Of a DNA stretch of 63,024 nt, positions 29,893 through 42,260 are shown in pieces; the stretch's first letter is position 1, and each line of letters starts with the position of its first letter. Location: the NCBI GenBank assembly GCA_029561255.1, contig JAKQJH010000038.1, positions 1 to 63,024 on the forward strand, read 5' to 3'. Origin of the DNA: Bacteroidota bacterium (GTDB lineage: Bacteria > Bacteroidota > Bacteroidia > Chitinophagales > Chitinophagaceae). The position numbers and the translations under genes are program-made. Below the pieces are notes generated by a model, which saw only the letters and a program-made list of their open reading frames with translations, was not told where the DNA came from and made no database searches.

Positions 29893-30399
29893 ATGGACTC
29901 TTCTTCAACCCCTGGCTACCGGCCAGTCAGTAACCATGTAATTGCCGAAGTACGGCAACATATCAGCAGTGGTCAGAATGCCCTTTTTACCCTGCGCAGC
30001 TGGCAGCCCGGAGAAGTAATCGCCGATTTTTCCGCAGGTACTATTTCCGCTGAACCTACCTATTTAACGGTGCAGATAGCGGAAGGAAAACACATCACGC
30101 TGCAACCTGAGTTTCTTCAGTATATCAATCATAGTTGTGAGCCCAATGTCTTCTTTGATACTACGTTGATGCAACTGGTGGCTTTAAAGGACATTCCGGC
30201 CGGTACTGAATTTGCATTCTTCTACCCTTCTTCTGAATGGGAAATGACTCAATCTTTCCAGTGTTACTGTGGTAAGCCGGGTTGCCTGGGAGAAATCAGG
30301 GGCGCTGCCCACCTTTCATCAGAAGCTGTTTCCCAACACCGGTTCACTGATTTTATTCAATCCCGCCTGGCTAAAAAAGCCGATAAAAAAGTAGCCTGA
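29893..30399 (+). CDS. SET-domain protein (putative methyltransferase)
   Basis: A stand-alone SET domain of 168 residues. The pseudoknot motif NHSCEPN is at 79-85, the second SET motif TEFAFFYP at about 105-112 takes the place of the ELTFDY consensus, and a post-SET-like C-x-C-x4-C is at C124, C126 and C131. SET domains known to date use SAM to methylate lysine side chains, mostly in proteins. In bacteria their targets are largely unknown. It is the first gene of a four-gene same-strand cluster; the ATP-grasp gene starts 4 nt later. The AT-rich 190-nt gap upstream must hold the promoter, but no perfect -7 box is visible. Confidence 0.85.
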   Translation: MDSSSTPGYRPVSNHVIAEVRQHISSGQNALFTLRSWQPGEVIADFSAGTISAEPTYLTVQIAEGKHITLQPEFLQYINHSCEPNVFFDTTLMQLVALKDIPAGTEFAFFYPSSEWEMTQSFQCYCGKPGCLGEIRGAAHLSSEAVSQHRFTDFIQSRLAKKADKKVA

Positions 30400-30403
30400 G
30401 CCG

Positions 30404-31561
30404 ATGAAGCCATCTGAATCCGCCCTGTTTGCGCCCTATATAGTATGGGTTCTTGCCCCGCACCTGGAGTCTGAAGACCCCAATATTCAATACTATTACG
30501 ATTTTTCGCAAAGCATTAAAGAATATACGCGTGTATTTGAGGAACTGAATGTTGAATGGAAATGGCAACCGGTGACCATGGATAATTTCCAGGATATTAT
30601 CGGCTCTATTCAAACCAATTCCCCGGGAAAGACGCCATTAATATTAAACCTTTGCGATGGCGATGAAGTGAATGGTACACCGGGTGTATCTGTCATTCAT
30701 GAAATCGAAAAGAACGGCCTCATTTATACAGGATCCGATGCTCATTTTTACGATATCACAACGTCTAAGATACCCATGAAGAAGGCTTTTGATAAGGCCG
30801 GAGTGGCGACGGCCAACTGGAGGGTAATTACAGAAAAAAAGGGTACCGTTAAGGGAATCTGCAAAAGGGTTGGAATCCCGCTGATCATTAAACCTGCCGT
30901 TTCCGGGGGAAGCATGGGTGTATCTGTTAAAAATGTGGTGAACTCCGAGGAAGAACTGGCCGAAAGAGTGGAAGAGATCAAAAAGGGTTACCGGGGCTGG
31001 AACCTGCTGGCCGATGGTTTATTTGTAGAACAATTCATCACCGGACCCGAATACACCACCTTTATTACCGGTTCTGCCAATGACCCCGAGCATTGTATCG
31101 TATACGAACCCGTTGAACGGGTCTTTCATCCTTCTCTTCCGGATGCGGAAAAGTTCCTCTCTTTTGACCGTCTATGGGAAATCTATGAAGACGAAGCGCC
31201 CATGCCGGAAGAAGGTAATTTTTATGAGTACACGACGGTCAAACCCGAACTCGCAGCTGAACTGAAACAGATAAGCATGGATGCTTATGTTGCCTGTGGA
31301 GGGCGAGGTTATACCCGAATCGATATCCGCCAGGATATGCATACCGGGAAACTATATATGCTGGAGGCCAATGCTCAATGCGGATTGAGCGAAGATGAAA
31401 ACTATACTTCAATTGGTGCCATCCTGAAAGTATCCGGAGTTTCTTTTACCCAGGTTATTGCAGAGATTCTTAAAGATGCCCTCCGCCGGAGTGTGGTTAC
31501 AGAGACTGCAACGGCTAAATCAAAGCGAACTAAAAAAGTGAAAGCGGTTTCTGCGAAATAA
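30404..31561 (+). CDS. ATP-grasp ligase, D-Ala-D-Ala ligase-like
   Basis: A 385-residue ATP-grasp enzyme. The nucleotide-binding strand IPLIIKPAVSGGSMGVSV (about 162-179), the hinge FVEQFITGPEYTTF (about 209-222) and the Mg-binding RIDIRQD plus LEANAQCGL (about 306-330) are all present, so it should be active. It differs from true Ddl in its N-terminal substrate region and has a basic Lys/Ala/Thr-rich tail of about 25 residues. Such enzymes join a carboxylate to an amine through an acyl phosphate. Its position next to two SET domains and a second ATP-grasp excludes routine cell-wall synthesis as the first guess. Confidence 0.88.
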   Translation: MKPSESALFAPYIVWVLAPHLESEDPNIQYYYDFSQSIKEYTRVFEELNVEWKWQPVTMDNFQDIIGSIQTNSPGKTPLILNLCDGDEVNGTPGVSVIHEIEKNGLIYTGSDAHFYDITTSKIPMKKAFDKAGVATANWRVITEKKGTVKGICKRVGIPLIIKPAVSGGSMGVSVKNVVNSEEELAERVEEIKKGYRGWNLLADGLFVEQFITGPEYTTFITGSANDPEHCIVYEPVERVFHPSLPDAEKFLSFDRLWEIYEDEAPMPEEGNFYEYTTVKPELAAELKQISMDAYVACGGRGYTRIDIRQDMHTGKLYMLEANAQCGLSEDENYTSIGAILKVSGVSFTQVIAEILKDALRRSVVTETATAKSKRTKKVKAVSAK

Positions 31562-31582
31562 GTTTTGTATTCCCCTGATTAT

Positions 31583-31590
31583 TACCTTAG
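31583..31590 (+). promoter_or_regulatory. Possible internal -7 box before the ATP-grasp-SET gene
   Basis: TACCTTAG matches TAnnTTTG at 7 of 8 positions and lies 6 nt before the ATG at 31597. It could drive the last two genes of the cluster separately. Confidence 0.35.
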
Positions 31591-31596
31591 CAAATC

Positions 31597-33024
31597 ATGA
31601 AAGTATGTGTACTTCAACCAGACTACTCCACCACGGGTGTGGATTATAAGAACTATGACCCACCCAGGGATTTAGCGGTATTGATACCCGAACATGAAGT
31701 ACATACGGTTTTCCTCAATAAACTGACGACTTACAGCCAGCTGAAAGATTTAAGCAAGCAAGGTTATGATATTTTCGTCAACCTTTGCGAAGGCTATCTT
31801 GAATGGGAAGTTCCGAGTATTGATGTGATTTATACCCTTGAACTACTGAACCTGCCTTTCACAGGCCCCACTACCAAACTTTATGATCCTCCCAAGGAGC
31901 TGATGAAATACCTGGCTTATTGTGAAGGGGTCAAAACACCGGGGTATGTCCTGATCAACGAATTGTCTGATGTCGACGAAGCGGTAAAGCATTTAACCTT
32001 TCCTCTTTTTGTAAAGCCGGCAAAAGCCGGTGACAGTCTTGGGGTGGACGATCGTTCACTGGTGAATAACAAGATTGAACTTCAACAGAAATGTATCAGT
32101 ATACTGGAAGAATATGGACCGTTGCTGGTAGAAGAATATATTGCCGGCAGAGAGTTTACTGTATTGGTGGCTGCCAATGCCGATGAGCACAGTTGTACGG
32201 TCTTTCGCCCGGTCGAGTATCTTTTCCCCGAGGGAAGGTCTTTTAAAACCTATGCCCTTAAGACTTCAGAGTTACACCCGGATTGCAATGTTCCCTGTAC
32301 GGATGAACTACTCGATCGTCAGTTAAGGACGGCTACAGAAAAAATATTCAAAGGTTTTAATGGGGTTGGTTATGCCCGTCTTGATTTCCGGGTCAATGAG
32401 CAACAGGAGATCTATTTCCTCGAAATCAATTTTACCTGTTCTGTTTTTTATGTAGATGGCTATGAAGGTTCCGCGGATTTTATCATCAAGTTTGACGGAA
32501 TTGGTCAGGCCGGATTCCTCCGCCATATGATTGCTGAAGGGATTGCCCGCCACCAGCGCAAACTGAAGCCCTTTATTATGAAGGGGAATTCGATAGCCGG
32601 TTATGGTATCTATGCTAACCGGGATATCCGGAAAGGGGAAACCATCTTTAAAGGAGAAGGTCGCGCTCAACGCATCATCACCAAACGTTTTGTAGAGAAG
32701 AACTGGAATGAAGACGAAAAACTGCATTTCCGCCGGTATGCCTACCCCATCAGTGATGAGGTATTCATTTTATGGGATGACGACCCCTCCGAATGGGCGC
32801 CACAGAACCATTGTTGTACGCCGAACACCGAATTTGACGGCCTGAACGTATTAGCCATTAGTGATATATCTAAAGGTCAGGAACTCACCCTTGATTATGC
32901 TAATTTTCTAGACGAGCATATGGAACCGTTTGATTGTCAATGTGGTACAAAAATGTGTCGCGGAAATATTTCGGGGCAAACCGGTAATTCTTTAAATTTG
33001 CGGGAGAAATCTATTACCCGTTAA
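31597..33024 (+). CDS. ATP-grasp ligase fused to a C-terminal SET domain
   Basis: A two-domain protein of 475 residues. Residues 1-310 form a D-Ala-D-Ala-ligase-like ATP-grasp: LFVKPAKAGDSLGV (137-150), LLVEEYIAGREFTV (176-189), ARLDFRVN (260-267) and FLEINFTCSVF (274-284). Residues 325-460 form a complete SET domain: IAGYGIYANRDIRKGETIF (333-351), NHCCTPN (404-410), GQELTLDY (427-434) and the post-SET cysteines C447, C449 and C454. The fusion says that ligation and methylation work on the same product or the same protein target. The gene follows the separate ATP-grasp by 35 nt. Confidence 0.9.
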   Translation: MKVCVLQPDYSTTGVDYKNYDPPRDLAVLIPEHEVHTVFLNKLTTYSQLKDLSKQGYDIFVNLCEGYLEWEVPSIDVIYTLELLNLPFTGPTTKLYDPPKELMKYLAYCEGVKTPGYVLINELSDVDEAVKHLTFPLFVKPAKAGDSLGVDDRSLVNNKIELQQKCISILEEYGPLLVEEYIAGREFTVLVAANADEHSCTVFRPVEYLFPEGRSFKTYALKTSELHPDCNVPCTDELLDRQLRTATEKIFKGFNGVGYARLDFRVNEQQEIYFLEINFTCSVFYVDGYEGSADFIIKFDGIGQAGFLRHMIAEGIARHQRKLKPFIMKGNSIAGYGIYANRDIRKGETIFKGEGRAQRIITKRFVEKNWNEDEKLHFRRYAYPISDEVFILWDDDPSEWAPQNHCCTPNTEFDGLNVLAISDISKGQELTLDYANFLDEHMEPFDCQCGTKMCRGNISGQTGNSLNLREKSITR

Positions 33025-33107
33025 ACGACTTACTCACCCCAGAGTCTATTACTTACTCCATTAGATTTTACTGACCCGATAGATGAATTTATCTAAACAG
33101 ATGAACT

Positions 33108-34016
33108 ATGTCCCGTTTTGCCGTACTCCGTACAATCATGCTTCAGCACCGTTACCGGCTGGTGCTGACCTATATCTTGTTTACCCTGGAAATGCTAGGC
33201 AGCCTGATGCGCCCTTTTTTCCTGGGATGGGCCGTGAATGACCTGATCAAGGGTAGTTACCAGGGTCTTTTGTTGCTATCAGGGGTCCATGTGGGTTGGC
33301 TGATTATTGGCACAATCCGGCACCGGCTGGATACCCGGACGTATACCGCTATTTATACCTCACTGGTTACAAAGTTCCTGGCCCGGCGATATGGTAAGGA
33401 GGATGTATCCAGGCTGAGTGCCCACTCCAACCTGGCGCGTGAATTTGTGGACTTCCTGGAATTTGACCTGGTCTATGTAATTGAAGCTTTTTATAGTTTG
33501 TTTGGTTCGCTGGTACTTTTATTCTTCTATGATACATCCGTAGTATTAGTGTGTCTGAGTATACTTTTACCCGTCAGCGGCTTTAGTTATTTCTATGGAA
33601 AGAAAATGAAGAAGCTGAATAAACAGAAGAATGACGAACTTGAACACCAGGTAAATATCATTGCTACAGGAAACAATCATCTGATCCGGCAGCACTATGA
33701 TAATCTCCGTAAATGGCAGATCCGCATCAGTGACCAGGAAGCGTGGAACTTTGGGATAATGGAAATTCTGGTGATGATTGTAATCGGGATATCATTATTG
33801 GTTACCAATAAAGCGGCAGGATCGGGTATTGAAGCGGGTAGCCTGATCGGTATATATAGCTATATCCAGAAATTCGTTTCCGGGCTGGATACTATACCGT
33901 ATACGGTACAACGACTTTCCTCGTTGAATGATATTACCCGGCGAATTGAACTGGAAGAAGATGATCTTGGCAAACCGGTATTACATAAAAAAGAAGGATT
34001 AAAGGAAGTAGCCTGA
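33108..34016 (+). CDS. ABC transporter six-transmembrane domain protein without ATPase
   Basis: A 302-residue membrane protein resembling the six-helix membrane half of ABC exporters (ABC_membrane_3 type). Hydrophobic segments are near 15-35, 50-70, 125-165 and 220-260. The coupling region between helices 4 and 5 is rich in charge (GKKMKKLNKQKNDELEHQVN). No Walker A, signature or Walker B motif is present, so it must borrow an ATPase or have lost transport. Last gene of the SET/ATP-grasp cluster, 83 nt after the fusion gene, and followed by a strong terminator. Export of the cluster's product is the obvious guess. Confidence 0.75.
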   Translation: MSRFAVLRTIMLQHRYRLVLTYILFTLEMLGSLMRPFFLGWAVNDLIKGSYQGLLLLSGVHVGWLIIGTIRHRLDTRTYTAIYTSLVTKFLARRYGKEDVSRLSAHSNLAREFVDFLEFDLVYVIEAFYSLFGSLVLLFFYDTSVVLVCLSILLPVSGFSYFYGKKMKKLNKQKNDELEHQVNIIATGNNHLIRQHYDNLRKWQIRISDQEAWNFGIMEILVMIVIGISLLVTNKAAGSGIEAGSLIGIYSYIQKFVSGLDTIPYTVQRLSSLNDITRRIELEEDDLGKPVLHKKEGLKEVA

Positions 34017-34048
34017 GCGGTTCCTTTAATCCTTTAATAATTTTTTTT
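33994..34048. terminator. Bidirectional terminator between the SET cluster and the giant surface protein
   Basis: A perfect 14-bp stem (AAGGATTAAAGGAA at 33994-34007, inverse at 34021-34034) with T-runs on both sides (34040-34048 on plus; the A-run at 33988-33995 for minus). It starts inside the last codons of the ABC-membrane gene and lies 5 nt from the stop of the convergent gene. Confidence 0.9.
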
Positions 34049-34052
34049 CTAA

Positions 34053-37000
34053 CTACTGTTTTACAAATTTATAGTACACCGGTATTCCGTTTTTTCTGTA
34101 AAGAACCGCAATATACAGCCCCCCGGGTAAAGAGTAGGTGTTGATTGTTATCGCGTTTCTGTTTGAAATAGTAAACTCATTGATCAACACTCCGCTTTCA
34201 GCAGAATACAGTTTAAAGGAATACCATTTGTCAGATAATTTCAGGCTGTCCACCACCAGGTAATCCTGTACCGGATTTGGATAGAACCTGATTCCATACC
34301 GGTTGGCCGGTACCGGATCAACGGCCGTAACCGGACTAACAGTAAAGCTGAGTATATTGCTGGTTACCTGTGTTGGGCTTACACAACCCGCATTGCTGGT
34401 CAAAATACTCCTTATTTTATCTCCCGAATTTGCGGGAGTGTAGTTAAGTGTAGCCCCGGTAGCCCCAACAATATCCTGCCAGCTATGCACGGACGTGCTA
34501 TCCTGCCAACGATAGGCCGGAGCTGTACCTCCGTTGGAAATACTGCTGCTGATTAAGGTTGCCTGGCCACTGGTTACGGACGTATTTCCGGATAAGGTAA
34601 TAGCAGGAGCCACCGCATTACCAACAGTTATGGTTATTATATTACTGGTGGCTGTAACCGGATTGATACAGGGAACACTACCCGTCATTATTACCTTTAT
34701 CTGGTCATTATTATTAAGAGATGAGCTCGTATACACCGGACTGTTTGTTCCGGTATTACTGCCATTTAACAACCACTGGAAAACGGGGACGGAACCGCCA
34801 TTTACAGGGGTGGCTGTAAATGTAACACCGGACCCGGTACATATGGTTGTTTGAGAAGCAGCAATGGTAACACCCGGAGCAACAATGGGTGATACCGTTA
34901 CGGTAATGACATTACTGTTTATGGCAAAAGACTGGTTACACCCGTTTGTGGTTCTCAGAACTACTTTTACCTGGTCATTATTACTGAGTGTGCTGCTGGT
35001 GAACGCGGTACTGTTTGTGCCTGCGTTGTTCCCGTTAATAAGCCATTGATAGGAGGTGGCTGTTCCTGTGTTAACAGGTAATGCGGTAAACGTAATACTG
35101 CCTCCTGTACAAATGCTGGTTTGGCTGGCCGTAATGCTTATTGAAGGGGTTGCGCCGGAGGAAAAGTTTACAGGAACAGTATTACTAGCTGCGGTAGCAG
35201 AGTTAATACAGGATTCATTGCTGGTTAATACCACATCAATAATATCCCCCTGGTTCAGTTCCTGCGATGTATATTGGTTACTGTTCAGACCGGTGTTAAT
35301 TCCGTTGCGCCGCCATTGATACAAGGGACTACTGCCTCCATTCACCGGGGTGGCTGTAAAGGTTACCGGAATTTGAGGACAGGTCATGCTGGTGGAACTG
35401 ATGGTAACCACTGGCTGTACCTGGGTATTGGTGTGATGTGTTATACTGTTGCTTGTGGCTGAGGAGCTGCTTAAACAAACCTCATTGCTGGTCATTACCA
35501 CTGTAACAAGGTCATTTGCTGCCAGGGAAGTAGTACTGAAAGAAGGTCCGTTAGCTCCTTGATTATTTCCATTTATTTTCCACTGGTAAGCAGGCGAAAA
35601 TCCTCCGTTTATTGAAGTAGCGGTAAAATTAACCTGTCCACCAGCACAAGAGGGGTTATTATCACTGGTTATGCTGACAAGCGGGGTAAGCGAAGGGTTA
35701 ACCCGCATGGTTATAATATTACTTTGTGCATTTTGAGAAACCAGGCAGGTGGCATTCACAACAACGGTTACCTGTACTGTATTGTTGTTCCCGAGCAGGT
35801 TGCTTGTGAATGTTGCTGAATTAGTCCCGGTGTTTATGCCGTTAACTTTCCATTGGTAGGAAGTATTGTTGTTATCACGGGTTACCGCTGCTGTGAAAGT
35901 AACCGGGTTTCCGGCGCAAATAACAGTATCTGTTGCCGTGATTGTAGCCTGTGGTGTAAGACTGTTGCCAACGTGCATTACTATGGCATTGCTGTAAGCG
36001 GTATCGTTAACAGCACAATCCTGACGTTTAACTTTCAGCATTACAATATCGTTATTGTTCAAAGCAGATGTTGTAAACGTATTACTGTTGCTACCGGCCG
36101 GGGTGCCATTCACCGTCCAGGTGTATGAAGGACCCGCACCGGCACTTTCTGTTACTGCAGTAAACGTAACAGATTCACCGGCACATATAAGTGAATCGCT
36201 AGCCGAAATAGTAACAGAGAAACGCGTGGACTCATAGGGCCCCATATCCACCACATTATTTTTTATGCGGACGCTATCCCTTATATCCTTGTCCAGTGTG
36301 CCCAGCAGCTCATTATTACCGGCATCGATTGTTCTTGAACAGGCAGCTGCCTGCAGGCCATCATCCGCGGTAAACCAAAGGTTATCCGCTCCTGCTCCAT
36401 TGCTTACATTCACAAAATCGGCCCAGCTATTGGGTATATTGTAGCTGAATCCGCTGGTTGTTGCGCTGTTGGTGGCACAGTTTCTCATATTATACCAGGG
36501 GATTGTTTCTCCACTGCCGCCATTATACCATAACATGTCAAGATTGGTGTAATTATTAGGTGTATTCATCAGGGTATTATCGCGGAAAACAGAATTAAAC
36601 ACTTTTACATTAAGTTCTCCCTGAATATAGGAGTTACTGCAATGTATACCCGCACCGAGCGAATTGGTGGTGACATTATTTGAAACAAAGGCCGAGTTTT
36701 TAATGGTCAGGTAGGGCTGACCGGTTATGCGCAGCCCGGCTCCTGTATAACTTTCATTTTTATAGAAAACAGAATTATCGATACTGATATTTGACCGATT
36801 GACAATTACATCTGTGCCCGCAATAACCCCGCCCGACCCTGTATTGTGGCTTACCACTGAATTGACCATCCTGAATTCAGGCCCCCAGGGCAGGCCATTA
36901 ACTACCATATATACATCGTGCAGGTAAAAACCGCCGCCATAGGCGCCGGATGTATTATTTGTAATAACAGTCTTTTTAAGAAACACATTGCTGTTAGTGC

Positions 37001-40000
37001 TGAAAAGGCCGCCACCGTTTGAAGCATAGTTTTTCCTGATTATGCAATTATTGATATTCAGTTTCCTGTTTCCAATGGCGAGTATTCCACCCCCCCCGGA
37101 GGCTGGGCCGGATGTACTATTTGAATTTCCGGATTCTATAACAAGTCCATCCAGAATAACAGTGGTGTCTGGGCAATGTACCCGGACCACAGAATAACTG
37201 TTATCTGCAGAATCATTCTGAATGCCGATATCACCACTGAGTATGGTTGGATATAAAACCGGGTTCCTGTCTGCCTCCCCCGGATTTCCTGAATCCGGGT
37301 ATCCACCGAGAAGTGTAATACCGGTATATATATTAAAACTGCTGTCCCTTTCGGATGACGAGGGTTTGTAAACTCCTTTGGCCACTTTTATGGTGTCGGC
37401 GCAGTTGTTTTGAATTGCTTTTTGCAGGTTGTTATAGGCGTTCGCCCAACTGCTTCCGTTTCCATTGATAGTTCCCGGTTTTACATAATATACTTTTGAT
37501 GATACATTACCCGATTGTAATTCATAGGCACCACGGTCAATGGTCCCGTTATAGATTCGGCCAGCCGACAAAATATCAACTGGCAGCTGGTTGAAATTGT
37601 TATTCCCGGAATTGATGGCAGCTGAGCAATCACAGGGGATATAGCCATCATCAGCACTGAAGAGCACCCCGTCTGGTCCGGTGGCTGTTGATAAGTCGCG
37701 TAATCTTGGATTAACACCGCTGGTGCTGTTTATCCTGTTACCCTGATCCTGCTTAAATAAGATACTATTTTGTATATCACATATAGCTGGATTGGTATTA
37801 TCCGAGGTTATGATATCATTTACAGATGCTGTATTCATTAGCCCGGATCCATAGCGCCAGAGAATGCTGTTATAAACCTTAACGGTGGAACCGCTGGCAC
37901 TGTTGATGAGCGGCAGTGCAATAACCGTGTTGCCGATTAATGTGCTGTTTACAACAGTCAGCGCAGAACTGCCCTCGTTGGTAACAAAGGTTCCGTTATA
38001 GTAAAGATTCGTGTTGTCTGTAAAATATTTTATAAAACCCACACAGTTGTCAATCCGGACTTCACTGTTTTTGTTAGCAATGGCAGAAGTGCCGGACTGA
38101 TCACCACCGGGCGCATTAAAAAAGCAGCTACGGTATACTACTTTACTGTTTTCATTGTAACTGACAGCCCCCTTTGCATACGTATAGGAGTTTTTGAATT
38201 CACAATGATCATACACGGCGTCAGAATTATCCATATTATTAACAGTTCCCCCACTGTAATCATAACTATAGGTTGTATCAGCAAATTGGCAGTTTTTTAC
38301 GAGCGGATAACTCCCACTGTTATAAATACTCCTTCCGTTTGTTTTACGGAAAACAGTGTTTTTAATCAGTGGATTTGAACCGGTATTGTATATCGCATTA
38401 GCCGCGGCACGTAAAAAATAGCAGCTGTCAAAAACCCCTGATGACTGATTAATTGTTACCGGCATTCCAAGTATTCCGGTTTGTGCACTGGTACTGTCTT
38501 TTCCAAAAAAGCAGCGTATGAAAGAAGGGTTACTGCCATTCCTGATCAGGATATCCCGTTTTTCAGATAATTGTGATTGATTGGTTATTACATTATAGAA
38601 AACGGATTTATAGAATACCGGTGAGCTGCCGGAGTGGATATGCAATGTATTATACGCATAGGATTTGGAGGCATCCAACTTAATATTTTCAAACCGGGCC
38701 GAACTTTTATAACCAACTTTTATGGAAGCCGGGTTTCTGGTGGTGGTATAATCCGGATGGCCTGCATTTATTAACCTGAAACCGGAAATTTTTGCAGTAC
38801 TGTCGTTGTTTATTGAAAGCACCAGGATTTTAACCCGTTGGGTACTGTTTACGGTACCATCAATAATGGTGGGATTAGCTTCCGGATCAGCAACGCCGTT
38901 TCCATTTTCCGGATATCCACCAATTACCACCCGGTTATTGCTTAACTGGTAAGTGGCATTTACGTCAGTTAAAGAAACCGGATAGCTACCGGCTGCAACT
39001 TTAATCGTATCAGAACAAACGGAAAAGGCTGATTGCAGATCAGTAAAGGCATTTGCCCAACTGGAACCATTATTAAGTCCCGTGACTGATTTTTTTACAT
39101 ATAGCACCTGTGCAGGAGGAGCCTGTGTTTCCTGGACTTCGTACGCACCAAGATCAGTGAACCCGTTTTTTATCCTGGGACGCCCTGTAATATCAAATGA
39201 AAGCCCGGATATAAATTCATTATTCCCCGTGTTTATAGCCGGGCTGCAGGGATTAAGCAGTGTCAGTCCGTCGTCGGGAGTAAAATACATATTATCGGCT
39301 CCTGCTATTCGGAGAGAATCAGTAAACCTTGGGTTTTGCCCGTTATATCCAGGGTTAATATAATTATATATTTCGGTTATACTGTTTGAAACCGTTATAG
39401 TTGAATAAACATCTTTATAGAACTCACTGGTATCTGTTATAAATGCCCCCGCATTTTGATACAGGATACTGTTTTGTAATAACAGGCTGCTGGTGTCGTG
39501 AATCCTGCTGTATCCGTAATTTTTAAACAGGGTACTGTTTAGCAGTTTGAGATCTGAATCAGCGAGATTAATAACAAAGGATGATTTGTTTTTGGCTATG
39601 ATATTATTGACGGCTGTGACTACAGAACCTTGCTGAATATTTAGAACGGCAGCTACAGAATCAACCCAGGTGGCCGTATTGTTTTCGAAAATATTATTTA
39701 GAGATTGCAGTACCGAGTTTTGAATGTTGAACCCGCAACCGTATGTTCCGTTGAAATTATTACGTATAACACAGCGGCTGATAATAATATTACTGTTATT
39801 AATATAGACCGGACCCCTGGTTTCATAATATCCTTCATACCCGTTTTCAACAATAAAGCCATCTACCAGGGCGCCCTTGACATTGTTTATGGTCAGGATG
39901 GTCCGGGTATTATCAGTTTGGGCAGAAGTGCCTATTTCGCCACTCAGAATAGTTTGGTTTGAGCTGATATTACGGTCGGTGTTACCGGGATTTCCTGTAT

Positions 40001-42260
40001 TAGGATAACCACCCAGAAGCACCAGTGAATCTCTTAAAGAGTAGGTATTGGTGTTTGAGGTTCCGGCCGTATATACCCCTTTTGCCACTTTTATTGTATC
40101 ACCGGTGGTTGCTACCAGCAAAGCGGATTGGATATTGCTTAAAGCAGTTGCCCAGGACAAACCATTGCCCCCGGTTGGTGCCCCCTGTTTGATATAGAAT
40201 GAAAAGCGGTTGGTCACCGGGCTTGTCAGGTTGAGGGTAACCTTATAATCTTCTATCTCACCGGTTCCGCCTGTACTGCAAGGACCAGGATAGAAACTGC
40301 TGTTACTAACCAAAACGCGCAAACCGGTTTCGCCAGCCGAACAATTAAAGGGTATTTTCAGTGTGCCGCTTATGAAACCCTGGCTGGTAATACCACTGAA
40401 CAGTCTTTCTGTATTCTCAAAAGTACCATTTCGGTTTATATCCAGCATAACCCAAACATAACGGGTCACAGAACCAGGCCTGAAACGGATATAAACCGGA
40501 ACGAGGGTTCCGTTTTCTATCGTTGTGCCAATAGAGCTATAGTTACCATATCCCCCGGTACTGCAAACTGATCCGTTTGTAATACTACCAATACTCACCG
40601 AGTCTATACCGTACGTATTGCAAACAGAGCTTTCTGGTACACAATAACAGGTAAATATGCTACTCGTAGTAACCTGAACCGGTGGTGTAACGGATGATTG
40701 CCCGCTGGCAATACAGGTATCTGTAAGTCTGTAATACCGGTTACTGTTCTGGCTGATGCTTAGCGGATTTACCAGATAAGTGGTATTGTTGATGTTTGAC
40801 CAGCTGGTACCGTCTGTTGATTGCTGCCAGGCGTATTTCATCTGGCCCTGATTTGTGGTTGTTCCCGTTGCACTGATTGAAAAGAAGGTATTGGGACATA
40901 CCGTTGCAGGCGCTGAAATAGTACCCGCAGAGACAGGTCCCGAACAGGACGGGGCATCAGAAATGATGATTTTGTAATCTTCCGCCTCTCCAACATAGTA
41001 AGCATCGCCGCAGGCTTCTGTCCAGGATATAACCGGAATATTTGCGTTGAAATATTTAATTTTTATGCGGAGCCGGGTTTCTCCGGTGATGGCGTTGATG
41101 GGAACCGCATATTGTAGCATATTACTCACCCCGGTTAAACCTGATATGGTTTGCAATTCCTGCTCATCAAATGAACCGTTGTGATTTATGTCAAGCCACG
41201 CTCCTATCGAGTAGGGAATACCGGTACCGTTACTGACTGCCAGTTGAATTTGGAAAGACAATCCCCTGTAAGTTGTTGCGCTGCCGGCCGTGGTAAAATT
41301 GGTATACCCGGAGACCGGACAACCGCTTGTGTTATTTATTGTACTCCCGGGAATTGTAACATTAGTAATATTCAGGCTATAACAACCGAGGTTATTTACT
41401 GTACAATAACAGTTGCTGAAAGGGGCATCATTAATTTGCAGCGTGTTGCTTACTGCGGAAGCGCCCGAAACCGTACAGGTATCCGTCAGGCGGTAAAAGG
41501 CCGGGGTTGTATGTGTTACCTGGAGTTGGTAAGGAGGGGTGAATCCATTGGTGATATTTGTCCAGGTTGTTCCGTCTAAAGATTTCTGCCAGGCATACCG
41601 TATACCAGTTGAATTTGTAGTCAGACCGGAAACAGAGAGTGTTAATGCGGCACCCGGACAAGCCGTCGAATTGCTTGAACTGATTGTTCCGGCATTCACG
41701 GTACTGCAATTATTTAGTTGTGATAATTCTGTAAAACTGAATTCATCTATCAGGGTGCCATTAGTGGATGAATTGGGTGAACTGTTCTGAAACCCTATAT
41801 AATAGGTACCGGAAGTTTCACAAACTAACGTATCCTCAACCAGGACAAAACTCAATGTACTGCCGGGAAAACTCGAGCGAACCTGTAAGGAAGGGCTGTT
41901 ATAGTCAGGAATTAATTTAATGTGTGTGCGGAGTACAGCTGTACTGTGAAGTTTTGCATAATATTTAAGCACATATTTTTTTCCGGCTGTAAGGATTTGA
42001 CCTGGTGTAAATAGCCAGGAGTTACCATTGGTTACATTTGGAAATGCCGCAGCGGAATAGTTTCCACTGTATACATCATAGCTGTATTGAATCCAGTTAT
42101 TTCCCCCCGGAGTATATCCCTGTACTGTCCATCCGGGTGATGGATAGCCGGCTTCGAAGCCTTCAGATAGCAATATTGTTTGGGAAAAAGAATGATAGGA
42201 AACGCCCAATAACATTAGAAGAAGTGTTTTCCGGGCCAGTTTAATTACAGAACTGTTCAT
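34053..42260 (-). CDS. Giant secreted beta-helix / Ig-repeat surface protein with T9SS type A sorting domain
   Basis: A 2735-residue exported protein. In order: signal peptide (to YHSFSQ); an adhesin/MAM-like domain (about 28-185); two Ig-like segments each starting (V/N)AGTIS, each followed by a GEVED-type domain (GEAEDYKI, GEIEDYKV); three right-handed beta-helix modules, each opened by a G-S-(S)-WA-A-NLQ-A motif with DTIKVA-G-Y and LLGGYP and closed by an A-I-N-(T/S)-GNN and D-x-GAYE motif; seven Ig-like repeats of about 88 residues (SI-C-G, TFTA, YQW-NG, SN-I-V); and a C-terminal sorting domain beginning YPNPVQDYL. Likely an adhesin or glycan-binding protein on the cell surface; no catalytic motif is obvious. 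Confidence 0.88.
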   Translation of the reverse strand: MNSSVIKLARKTLLLMLLGVSYHSFSQTILLSEGFEAGYPSPGWTVQGYTPGGNNWIQYSYDVYSGNYSAAAFPNVTNGNSWLFTPGQILTAGKKYVLKYYAKLHSTAVLRTHIKLIPDYNSPSLQVRSSFPGSTLSFVLVEDTLVCETSGTYYIGFQNSSPNSSTNGTLIDEFSFTELSQLNNCSTVNAGTISSSNSTACPGAALTLSVSGLTTNSTGIRYAWQKSLDGTTWTNITNGFTPPYQLQVTHTTPAFYRLTDTCTVSGASAVSNTLQINDAPFSNCYCTVNNLGCYSLNITNVTIPGSTINNTSGCPVSGYTNFTTAGSATTYRGLSFQIQLAVSNGTGIPYSIGAWLDINHNGSFDEQELQTISGLTGVSNMLQYAVPINAITGETRLRIKIKYFNANIPVISWTEACGDAYYVGEAEDYKIIISDAPSCSGPVSAGTISAPATVCPNTFFSISATGTTTNQGQMKYAWQQSTDGTSWSNINNTTYLVNPLSISQNSNRYYRLTDTCIASGQSSVTPPVQVTTSSIFTCYCVPESSVCNTYGIDSVSIGSITNGSVCSTGGYGNYSSIGTTIENGTLVPVYIRFRPGSVTRYVWVMLDINRNGTFENTERLFSGITSQGFISGTLKIPFNCSAGETGLRVLVSNSSFYPGPCSTGGTGEIEDYKVTLNLTSPVTNRFSFYIKQGAPTGGNGLSWATALSNIQSALLVATTGDTIKVAKGVYTAGTSNTNTYSLRDSLVLLGGYPNTGNPGNTDRNISSNQTILSGEIGTSAQTDNTRTILTINNVKGALVDGFIVENGYEGYYETRGPVYINNSNIIISRCVIRNNFNGTYGCGFNIQNSVLQSLNNIFENNTATWVDSVAAVLNIQQGSVVTAVNNIIAKNKSSFVINLADSDLKLLNSTLFKNYGYSRIHDTSSLLLQNSILYQNAGAFITDTSEFYKDVYSTITVSNSITEIYNYINPGYNGQNPRFTDSLRIAGADNMYFTPDDGLTLLNPCSPAINTGNNEFISGLSFDITGRPRIKNGFTDLGAYEVQETQAPPAQVLYVKKSVTGLNNGSSWANAFTDLQSAFSVCSDTIKVAAGSYPVSLTDVNATYQLSNNRVVIGGYPENGNGVADPEANPTIIDGTVNSTQRVKILVLSINNDSTAKISGFRLINAGHPDYTTTRNPASIKVGYKSSARFENIKLDASKSYAYNTLHIHSGSSPVFYKSVFYNVITNQSQLSEKRDILIRNGSNPSFIRCFFGKDSTSAQTGILGMPVTINQSSGVFDSCYFLRAAANAIYNTGSNPLIKNTVFRKTNGRSIYNSGSYPLVKNCQFADTTYSYDYSGGTVNNMDNSDAVYDHCEFKNSYTYAKGAVSYNENSKVVYRSCFFNAPGGDQSGTSAIANKNSEVRIDNCVGFIKYFTDNTNLYYNGTFVTNEGSSALTVVNSTLIGNTVIALPLINSASGSTVKVYNSILWRYGSGLMNTASVNDIITSDNTNPAICDIQNSILFKQDQGNRINSTSGVNPRLRDLSTATGPDGVLFSADDGYIPCDCSAAINSGNNNFNQLPVDILSAGRIYNGTIDRGAYELQSGNVSSKVYYVKPGTINGNGSSWANAYNNLQKAIQNNCADTIKVAKGVYKPSSSERDSSFNIYTGITLLGGYPDSGNPGEADRNPVLYPTILSGDIGIQNDSADNSYSVVRVHCPDTTVILDGLVIESGNSNSTSGPASGGGGILAIGNRKLNINNCIIRKNYASNGGGLFSTNSNVFLKKTVITNNTSGAYGGGFYLHDVYMVVNGLPWGPEFRMVNSVVSHNTGSGGVIAGTDVIVNRSNISIDNSVFYKNESYTGAGLRITGQPYLTIKNSAFVSNNVTTNSLGAGIHCSNSYIQGELNVKVFNSVFRDNTLMNTPNNYTNLDMLWYNGGSGETIPWYNMRNCATNSATTSGFSYNIPNSWADFVNVSNGAGADNLWFTADDGLQAAACSRTIDAGNNELLGTLDKDIRDSVRIKNNVVDMGPYESTRFSVTISASDSLICAGESVTFTAVTESAGAGPSYTWTVNGTPAGSNSNTFTTSALNNNDIVMLKVKRQDCAVNDTAYSNAIVMHVGNSLTPQATITATDTVICAGNPVTFTAAVTRDNNNTSYQWKVNGINTGTNSATFTSNLLGNNNTVQVTVVVNATCLVSQNAQSNIITMRVNPSLTPLVSITSDNNPSCAGGQVNFTATSINGGFSPAYQWKINGNNQGANGPSFSTTSLAANDLVTVVMTSNEVCLSSSSATSNSITHHTNTQVQPVVTISSTSMTCPQIPVTFTATPVNGGSSPLYQWRRNGINTGLNSNQYTSQELNQGDIIDVVLTSNESCINSATAASNTVPVNFSSGATPSISITASQTSICTGGSITFTALPVNTGTATSYQWLINGNNAGTNSTAFTSSTLSNNDQVKVVLRTTNGCNQSFAINSNVITVTVSPIVAPGVTIAASQTTICTGSGVTFTATPVNGGSVPVFQWLLNGSNTGTNSPVYTSSSLNNNDQIKVIMTGSVPCINPVTATSNIITITVGNAVAPAITLSGNTSVTSGQATLISSSISNGGTAPAYRWQDSTSVHSWQDIVGATGATLNYTPANSGDKIRSILTSNAGCVSPTQVTSNILSFTVSPVTAVDPVPANRYGIRFYPNPVQDYLVVDSLKLSDKWYSFKLYSAESGVLINEFTISNRNAITINTYSLPGGLYIAVLYRKNGIPVYYKFVKQ

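Follow-up and report, generated by a model that had tools for sequence, protein, structure and literature searches.

The window analysed here is the whole stretch of 63,024 nucleotides, taken from a Bacteroidota metagenome assembly of 3.63 Mb and 76% completeness. At 29893-34016 on the + strand it holds four open reading frames, SETn, AG1, AG2-SETc and ABCm, followed by a terminator. Frames and Pfam matches agree with a sequence-only reading of this DNA, which had named four same-strand genes: a stand-alone SET domain, an ATP-grasp resembling D-Ala-D-Ala ligase (Ddl), an ATP-grasp fused to a SET domain, and the membrane half of an ATP-binding cassette (ABC) transporter. The features are as follows.

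29893..30399, + strand: SETn, predicted stand-alone BurB-like SET-domain methyltransferase (168 aa; Pfam SET 34.8 bits, cut-off 22.4)
30404..31561, + strand: AG1, Ddl-like ATP-grasp ligase with altered substrate loops (385 aa; Pfam Dala_Dala_lig_C 67.8 bits, cut-off 24)
31597-33024, + strand: AG2-SETc, ATP-grasp-SET fusion (475 aa; Pfam Dala_Dala_lig_C 72.8 bits and SET 40.5 bits in a single protein)
31597..32560, + strand: AG2, the ATP-grasp part of the fusion, approximately residues 1-322
32590..33024, + strand: SETc, the SET domain of the fusion with its post-SET cysteines (Pfam SET residues 335-434)
33108..34016, + strand: ABCm, accessory ABC transporter membrane half without ATPase (302 aa; ABC_membrane_3 PF13748 162 bits, cut-off 27)
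33993..34048, + strand: intrinsic terminator by folding, a 15-pair stem followed by U8, overlapping the ABCm stop codon

The Pfam search of ABCm listed no ATPase family. The strong terminator that had been said to close the set was recovered, with a hairpin of -21.6 kcal/mol (z -4.9) that none of 200 shuffled sequences equalled in stability.

Conservation of the module

The named loci are the best 80 of 431 relatives in the GTDB genome set, with hosts including Terrimonas, Sediminibacterium, Ferruginibacter and Hydrotalea. SETn, AG1 and AG2-SETc adjoin in 65 of the 80. The order SETn AG1 AG2-SETc ABCm was present in 33 loci and the order SETn AG1 AG2-SETc in 31, while one locus has SETn and AG1 fused; three further loci carry extra or split frames between the module genes. 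AG1 was seen in 77 loci, SETn in 69 and ABCm in 42. Seven of the 11 loci without SETn end at a contig edge. Because the simple gene caller overlooked SETn in two genomes (G534 and G552), where a direct search found it beside AG1, a few of the absences of SETn among the 80 loci may be misses too. Thus the conserved unit is SETn, AG1 and AG2-SETc, with ABCm as an optional accessory, and of the four-gene cluster proposed from the sequence the first three genes held together and the fourth only in part.

A long AG2-SETc match was found in 28 of 35 genomes of the genus (split across two contigs in G020), and a further one, G028, has a fragment where its contig ends. In most regions of the genus where the contig reaches far enough, SETn and AG1 lie directly upstream of AG2-SETc, and the flanking genes vary. 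In a sample of Chitinophagaceae the fusion was present in 79 of 294 genomes and 33 of 87 genera, i.e. it is common in the family and far from universal. A phylum-wide sample gave matches in 21 of 395 genomes; four of these (family f36) extend over the ATP-grasp only, leaving 17. Neighbouring genes were compared for 99 loci in 21 groups formed by AG2-SETc similarity, using frames of at least 90 residues in the stretches at hand. The only families recurring in at least five of the 21 groups were the ATP-grasps, SETn and ABCm.

The ATP-grasp proteins are Ddl-like and below the curated Ddl models

AG1 and AG2-SETc scored 77.7 and 81.7 bits with the NCBIfam Ddl model TIGR01205 (cut-off 245.65), and neither reached the threshold of any NCBIfam Ddl model listed, whereas the host genome's own Ddl passes with 274.2 bits. 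The sequence-only reading had named proof of ordinary Ddl isozymes as a refutation; these scores speak against such isozymes. The fold search with AG2-SETc returned Ddl-type chains only, among the matches listed. Fold and metal-binding residues place both proteins among the Ddl-like ATP-grasps, AG2 by its model and AG1 by its sequence; the Mg ligands of AG1, D307, E321 and N323, are invariant. The Ddl-type substrate loops are replaced in both by NLC[ED]G and by CGLSEDENY or CSVFYxDGYEGSAD instead of the PG-containing Ddl motif. AG1 and AG2 share 27% identity over 321 columns (hhalign E 1.1e-35), and AG2 is closer to AG1 (69 bits) than to the host Ddl (46 bits). Going by the curated models, AG1 and AG2 are classed as a Ddl-like branch of the ATP-grasp superfamily and not as Ddl isozymes. 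Unlike Ddl, they are coupled or fused to SET domains. AG1 furthermore has two conserved acidic stretches, D255-R-L-W-E-x-Y-x-x-E264 and S329-x-D-E332; we speculate that these might fit a positively charged substrate.

The Thioflavicoccus mobilis plasmid pTHIMO01 (L221) encodes a Ddl-like ATP-grasp with distant similarity to AG2. Its gene adjoins others annotated for the synthesis of diaminobutyrate and diaminopropionate; the incomplete gene table of this locus holds no SET gene.

SETn and SETc differ in their nearest relatives

SET domains are almost wholly known as protein-lysine methylases. The sequence-only reading had taken lysines as their only known acceptors, so that a small-molecule substrate would be new. 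This premise is out of date, because BurB, the nearest structure-solved relative of SETn, is a SET-domain enzyme that S-methylates free methionine (PMC12542666). A small-molecule SET substrate therefore has precedent. BurB is an enzyme of Burkholderia thailandensis (PDB 9l4t and 9l4v).

A profile search with SETn returned BurB at 3.4e-18 against 4.9e-9 for the next sequence, and a search with the single protein at 6.5e-13 against 1.1e-6. As controls, one stand-alone SET protein of the same genus matched Set1/KMT2A at 1e-17 with BurB outside the best 60 of 111 matches, and one small green sulfur SET protein gave a tie (Set1 3.0e-10, BurB 3.1e-10). BurB was also nearest by fold. Taken together, the sequence comparisons and the structure model clearly point to BurB as the closest relative of SETn. 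The two proteins are alike in length (168 vs 172 aa), fold and post-SET cysteines, and SETn has the T-x-Q, H and P ahead of the HSC-x-PN motif and the Y-x-S-T/S-E behind it. The residues for contact with S-adenosylmethionine and methionine give a mixed picture: BurB H93 corresponds to H80 of SETn (68 of 68 rows) and BurB T73 to T59 (T in 66, S in two of 68 rows), H138 of BurB has no counterpart, and the contacts of BurB to methionine are main-chain contacts. On the other hand, SETn is 27-30% identical to BurB and reads FFYP where BurB has MDYA. The genomic partners differ as well, ATP-grasp ligases for SETn and dimethylsulfoniopropionate (DMSP) and malleicyprol genes for BurB; no DMSP-pathway gene recurs with SETn in at least five of the 21 groups.

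For SETc the order of relatives is different. KMT2A came first in the sequence search (1.3e-10 over residues 332-457) and BurB second (9.6e-10), the latter over residues 405-463, i.e. the domain end only. SETc thus appears nearest to KMT2A-type enzymes with BurB close behind, and in this respect the two SET domains differ. The motifs that had been called intact are so: N79, H80, C82, Y111, C124, C126 and C131 of SETn, comprising N-H-x-C, the tyrosine at the catalytic position and the post-SET cysteines, are present in 68 of 68 rows, and N404, H405, C407, Y434, C447, C449 and C454 of SETc are invariant in two alignments, the cysteines in the 71 rows of one of them. The post-SET C-x-C-x4-C noted earlier is therefore invariant in both families alike.

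Coupling and co-retention of ligases and SET domains

The median gap between SETn and AG1 is 4 bases, and in 21 of 67 loci the two genes touch or overlap; in one genome (G019, L161) they form a single protein of 556 residues. Every one of the 80 named loci encodes AG2 and SETc as one fused protein. Pairwise distances over 66 loci correlated with r 0.73 for SETn and AG1, 0.72 for SETn and AG2-SETc, and 0.84 for AG1 and AG2-SETc, values which would also be expected from shared host descent alone.

SETn was searched for in ten genomes with AG2-SETc, mostly picked for no SETn seen nearby, and in 24 module-less genomes, i.e. those with no AG1 match or no full AG2-SETc match. It was found at E <1e-50 in six of the ten (G347, G544, G267, G534, G552 and G172), unlinked to AG2-SETc in G347, G544 and G267. 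None of the 24 module-less genomes had a strong match; the best, at 1.4e-12, is a value that other SET genes also reach. G267 carries SETn and AG1 side by side on one contig, with AG2-SETc and ABCm each on a separate contig. ABCm was present in two of 15 module genomes, a set that is not representative, and in one of the 24 others (G013).

Lineage variants

The chlorosome family PF02043 was detected in both genomes tested in family f37 (genus g80) and in none of five tested outside, and we therefore take g80 as green sulfur bacteria. Two g80 loci (L127:5815-10074 and L126:5839-10074) contain SETn, AG2-SETc, an ABC protein and a second SET protein of 120 residues that is roughly as close to Set1 as to BurB; in L127 the ABC protein has both membrane and ATPase domains. 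In the divergent G266 (L124:4044-12099), AG2-SETc is followed by an N-formylglutamate amidohydrolase, a MATCAP/DUF1704 protein and a glutathione-synthetase-type ATP-grasp, and a gamma-glutamyltranspeptidase is encoded upstream.

Proposed function and its alternatives

Since two ligases pair with two SET domains, one of which is nearest to a methionine methylase, the module probably makes a methylated small peptide. As judged from the sequences, we lean, somewhat beyond an even chance, to SETn, AG1 and AG2-SETc forming one non-ribosomal small-molecule pathway of two ligase-methyltransferase couples, with a small methylated peptide as its predicted product, sometimes exported. We infer activity for the two ligases and the two methylases alike, and a place for all of them in this one pathway. 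Like Ddl, AG1 and AG2 would spend ATP to turn a carboxylate into an acyl phosphate and then couple it to an amine, with other substrates. SETn would transfer a methyl group from S-adenosylmethionine to a side chain, be it on the peptide or on a free amino acid; its relation to BurB makes a thioether (methionine) or a side-chain amine the likely acceptor. A second methyl transfer would fall to SETc, which is bound to AG2. A methylated di- or tripeptide would result, which in some lineages the ABC protein may carry over the membrane. The small-molecule route is the most economical reading in view of the BurB kinship of SETn, ligases of a type that joins amino acids, and ABC proteins nearby in several lineages, with neither a precursor peptide nor any other recurring neighbour family found.

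Several results weigh against this pathway. The first match of SETc is a protein-lysine SET. The model of SETn deviates more from BurB (root-mean-square deviation 3.4) than from ASH1L (2.3), SETn retains the canonical Asn (NHSC) where BurB has Leu, and the adenine-binding His138 of BurB is not retained. That BurB comes out nearest may reflect a common bacterial branch rather than a common substrate, since BurB was the sole structure-solved small-molecule SET encountered. AG1 was not found in two g80 genomes, so two ligases are not always needed. In G465 (90% complete), G476 (96%) and the divergent G266 and G395, the search for SETn matched only within AG2-SETc. ABCm lacks an ATPase and was not seen in 38 of the 80 named loci, of which at least L140 and L203 are cut there, and the genus member G013 keeps ABCm without the rest of the module. 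AG2-SETc is absent from six of 35 genus genomes (G002, G006, G009, G013, G017 and G022; two of them less than 90% complete) and from 215 of the 294 sampled Chitinophagaceae genomes.

The kinship of SETc to KMT2A-type protein methylases would suit modification of a cellular protein tail, in which the ATP-grasps add residues like RimK or the tubulin tyrosine ligases (TTL) and the SET domains methylate these or nearby lysines. Human TTLL12 is likewise a single protein with a SET-like domain and a ligase domain of TTL-like kind (PMC3520985), and retention of the module in reduced genomes of ~2 Mb, e.g. G023, suits a basic role. Yet TTLL12 is TTL-type, eukaryotic and reported inactive in vitro, while the module is Ddl-type and bacterial with intact motifs. 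SETn is closer to BurB than to protein SETs, and the matches of the ATP-grasps are to Ddl rather than to RimK or TTL, for AG2 by fold too; no TTL family was among the Pfam matches of the module proteins up to E 1. With an ABC protein alongside in 42 of 80 loci, a complete one in a green sulfur bacterium, and no other recurring neighbour family, we consider modification of a protein tail unlikely, though the strongest of the alternatives. Quite improbable is a graspetide-like ribosomally synthesized and post-translationally modified peptide with its precursor encoded elsewhere, cross-linked by the ligases, methylated by the SET domains and exported by ABCm. Graspetide and other ATP-grasp amidoligase loci do bring together ATP-grasps (two in some loci) with frequent methyltransferases and ABC transporters, but the methyltransferases named in the portion of the survey at hand are isoaspartate O-methyltransferases or UbiE-like, not SET (PMC8939145). 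Moreover, the ATP-grasps here are of Ddl type, the genes often overlap, and no small-ORF (open reading frame) family is tied to the module within 1 kb in the 80 loci. Among 551 small ORFs near the genes the widest family reached eight loci and looked antisense-like by eye, and the second-widest, in seven loci, looked like single-strand DNA-binding protein.

About equally improbable is that SETn makes S-methylmethionine for DMSP as BurB does, with the ligases serving a separate function kept nearby. The kinship of SETn to BurB speaks for it, but no decarboxylase, transaminase or dehydrogenase is regularly linked, because no other family recurs beside the module. SETn also accompanies the ligases where it lies apart from AG2-SETc, and in one case it is fused to AG1. 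Finally, AG1 and AG2 could be extra Ddl isozymes in cell-wall synthesis with the SET domains as passengers, as their top PDB and NCBIfam matches are Ddl. We rejected Ddl isozymes on the curated cut-offs (78 and 82 vs 245.65 bits, with the genome's own Ddl passing) and the replaced substrate loops; the Ddl-type ATP-grasp end is replaced in both and AG2 is nearer to AG1 than to the host Ddl, which leaves very little probability for this role.

Relation to known systems

The claim that no characterised system has this make-up agrees with the open literature, where we found no described system in which two Ddl-like ligases are each paired with a SET domain; subscription literature lay mostly outside the scope. 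Among 5.39 million open papers, two pair the terms ATP-grasp and SET domain, and neither is about bacteria, as judged from title and abstract. Each family is already known, as is small-molecule SET chemistry from BurB; what the open literature searched did not show is their combination, and there is a fair chance that the novelty goes further. One paper confines BurB to some Burkholderia (PMC9135737), though another counts a Streptomyces enzyme as a BurB homologue (PMC12542666). Here, a BurB-like SET protein is present in 69 of 80 Bacteroidota loci, tied to peptide ligases by operon, fusion and co-retention. It is possible, at somewhat less than even chance, that the module stands for a new class of natural product or solute whose synthesis needs neither ribosome nor non-ribosomal peptide synthetase: a di- or tripeptide from two ATP-grasps with a SET-placed sulfonium or multiply methylated side chains, occurring across Chitinophagaceae, with a related version in green sulfur bacteria, which would be a second and far wider home for BurB-type chemistry. 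If the small-peptide pathway is true, it reveals an overlooked methylated metabolite, and the passage of SET enzymes between small-molecule and protein substrates becomes a testable question. The module proteins are easily mistaken for Ddl and a histone methyltransferase.

In sum, the observation made from the sequence was confirmed and its interpretation, a pathway of ligation, methylation and perhaps export, partly supported.

Origin, extra copies and surroundings

A viral origin was rejected as tblastn against viral contigs found no relative. A mobile origin was rejected likewise: the 425 plasmid and 10 phage records all matched at <60% identity and none covered 80% of the query. Among the matches listed (10 + 10), the alignments span the ATP-grasp part only, and the incomplete gene tables of three plasmid loci hold no SET gene. 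An anti-phage defence system was rejected because the four proteins had no PADLOC match at E up to 0.01.

The window's assembly holds a second copy of the module (L031, G000:C142:1-8000) with AG1 92%, AG2-SETc 96% and ABCm 95% identical, and G004 has three versions (L032, L033 and L034). These extra copies are probably mixed strains in the bins and not true paralogues. In G013, locus L062 (G013:C1:308000-316138) has ABCm and part of the flank; SETn, AG1 and a full AG2-SETc were not found, and at the end of the contig there is a short SET-like stretch. This pattern is either loss or an assembly gap.

A simple terminator scan of the window gave five matches, which is chance level. The hairpin at 33993..34048 was not among them, probably owing to the loop and tail limits of that scan. 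A Bacteroidota-type promoter pattern matched once in the window, distant from the module and within chance. Adjoining the module on the - strand, 34053-42260 holds a repetitive frame of 2735 residues, perhaps a secreted surface protein.
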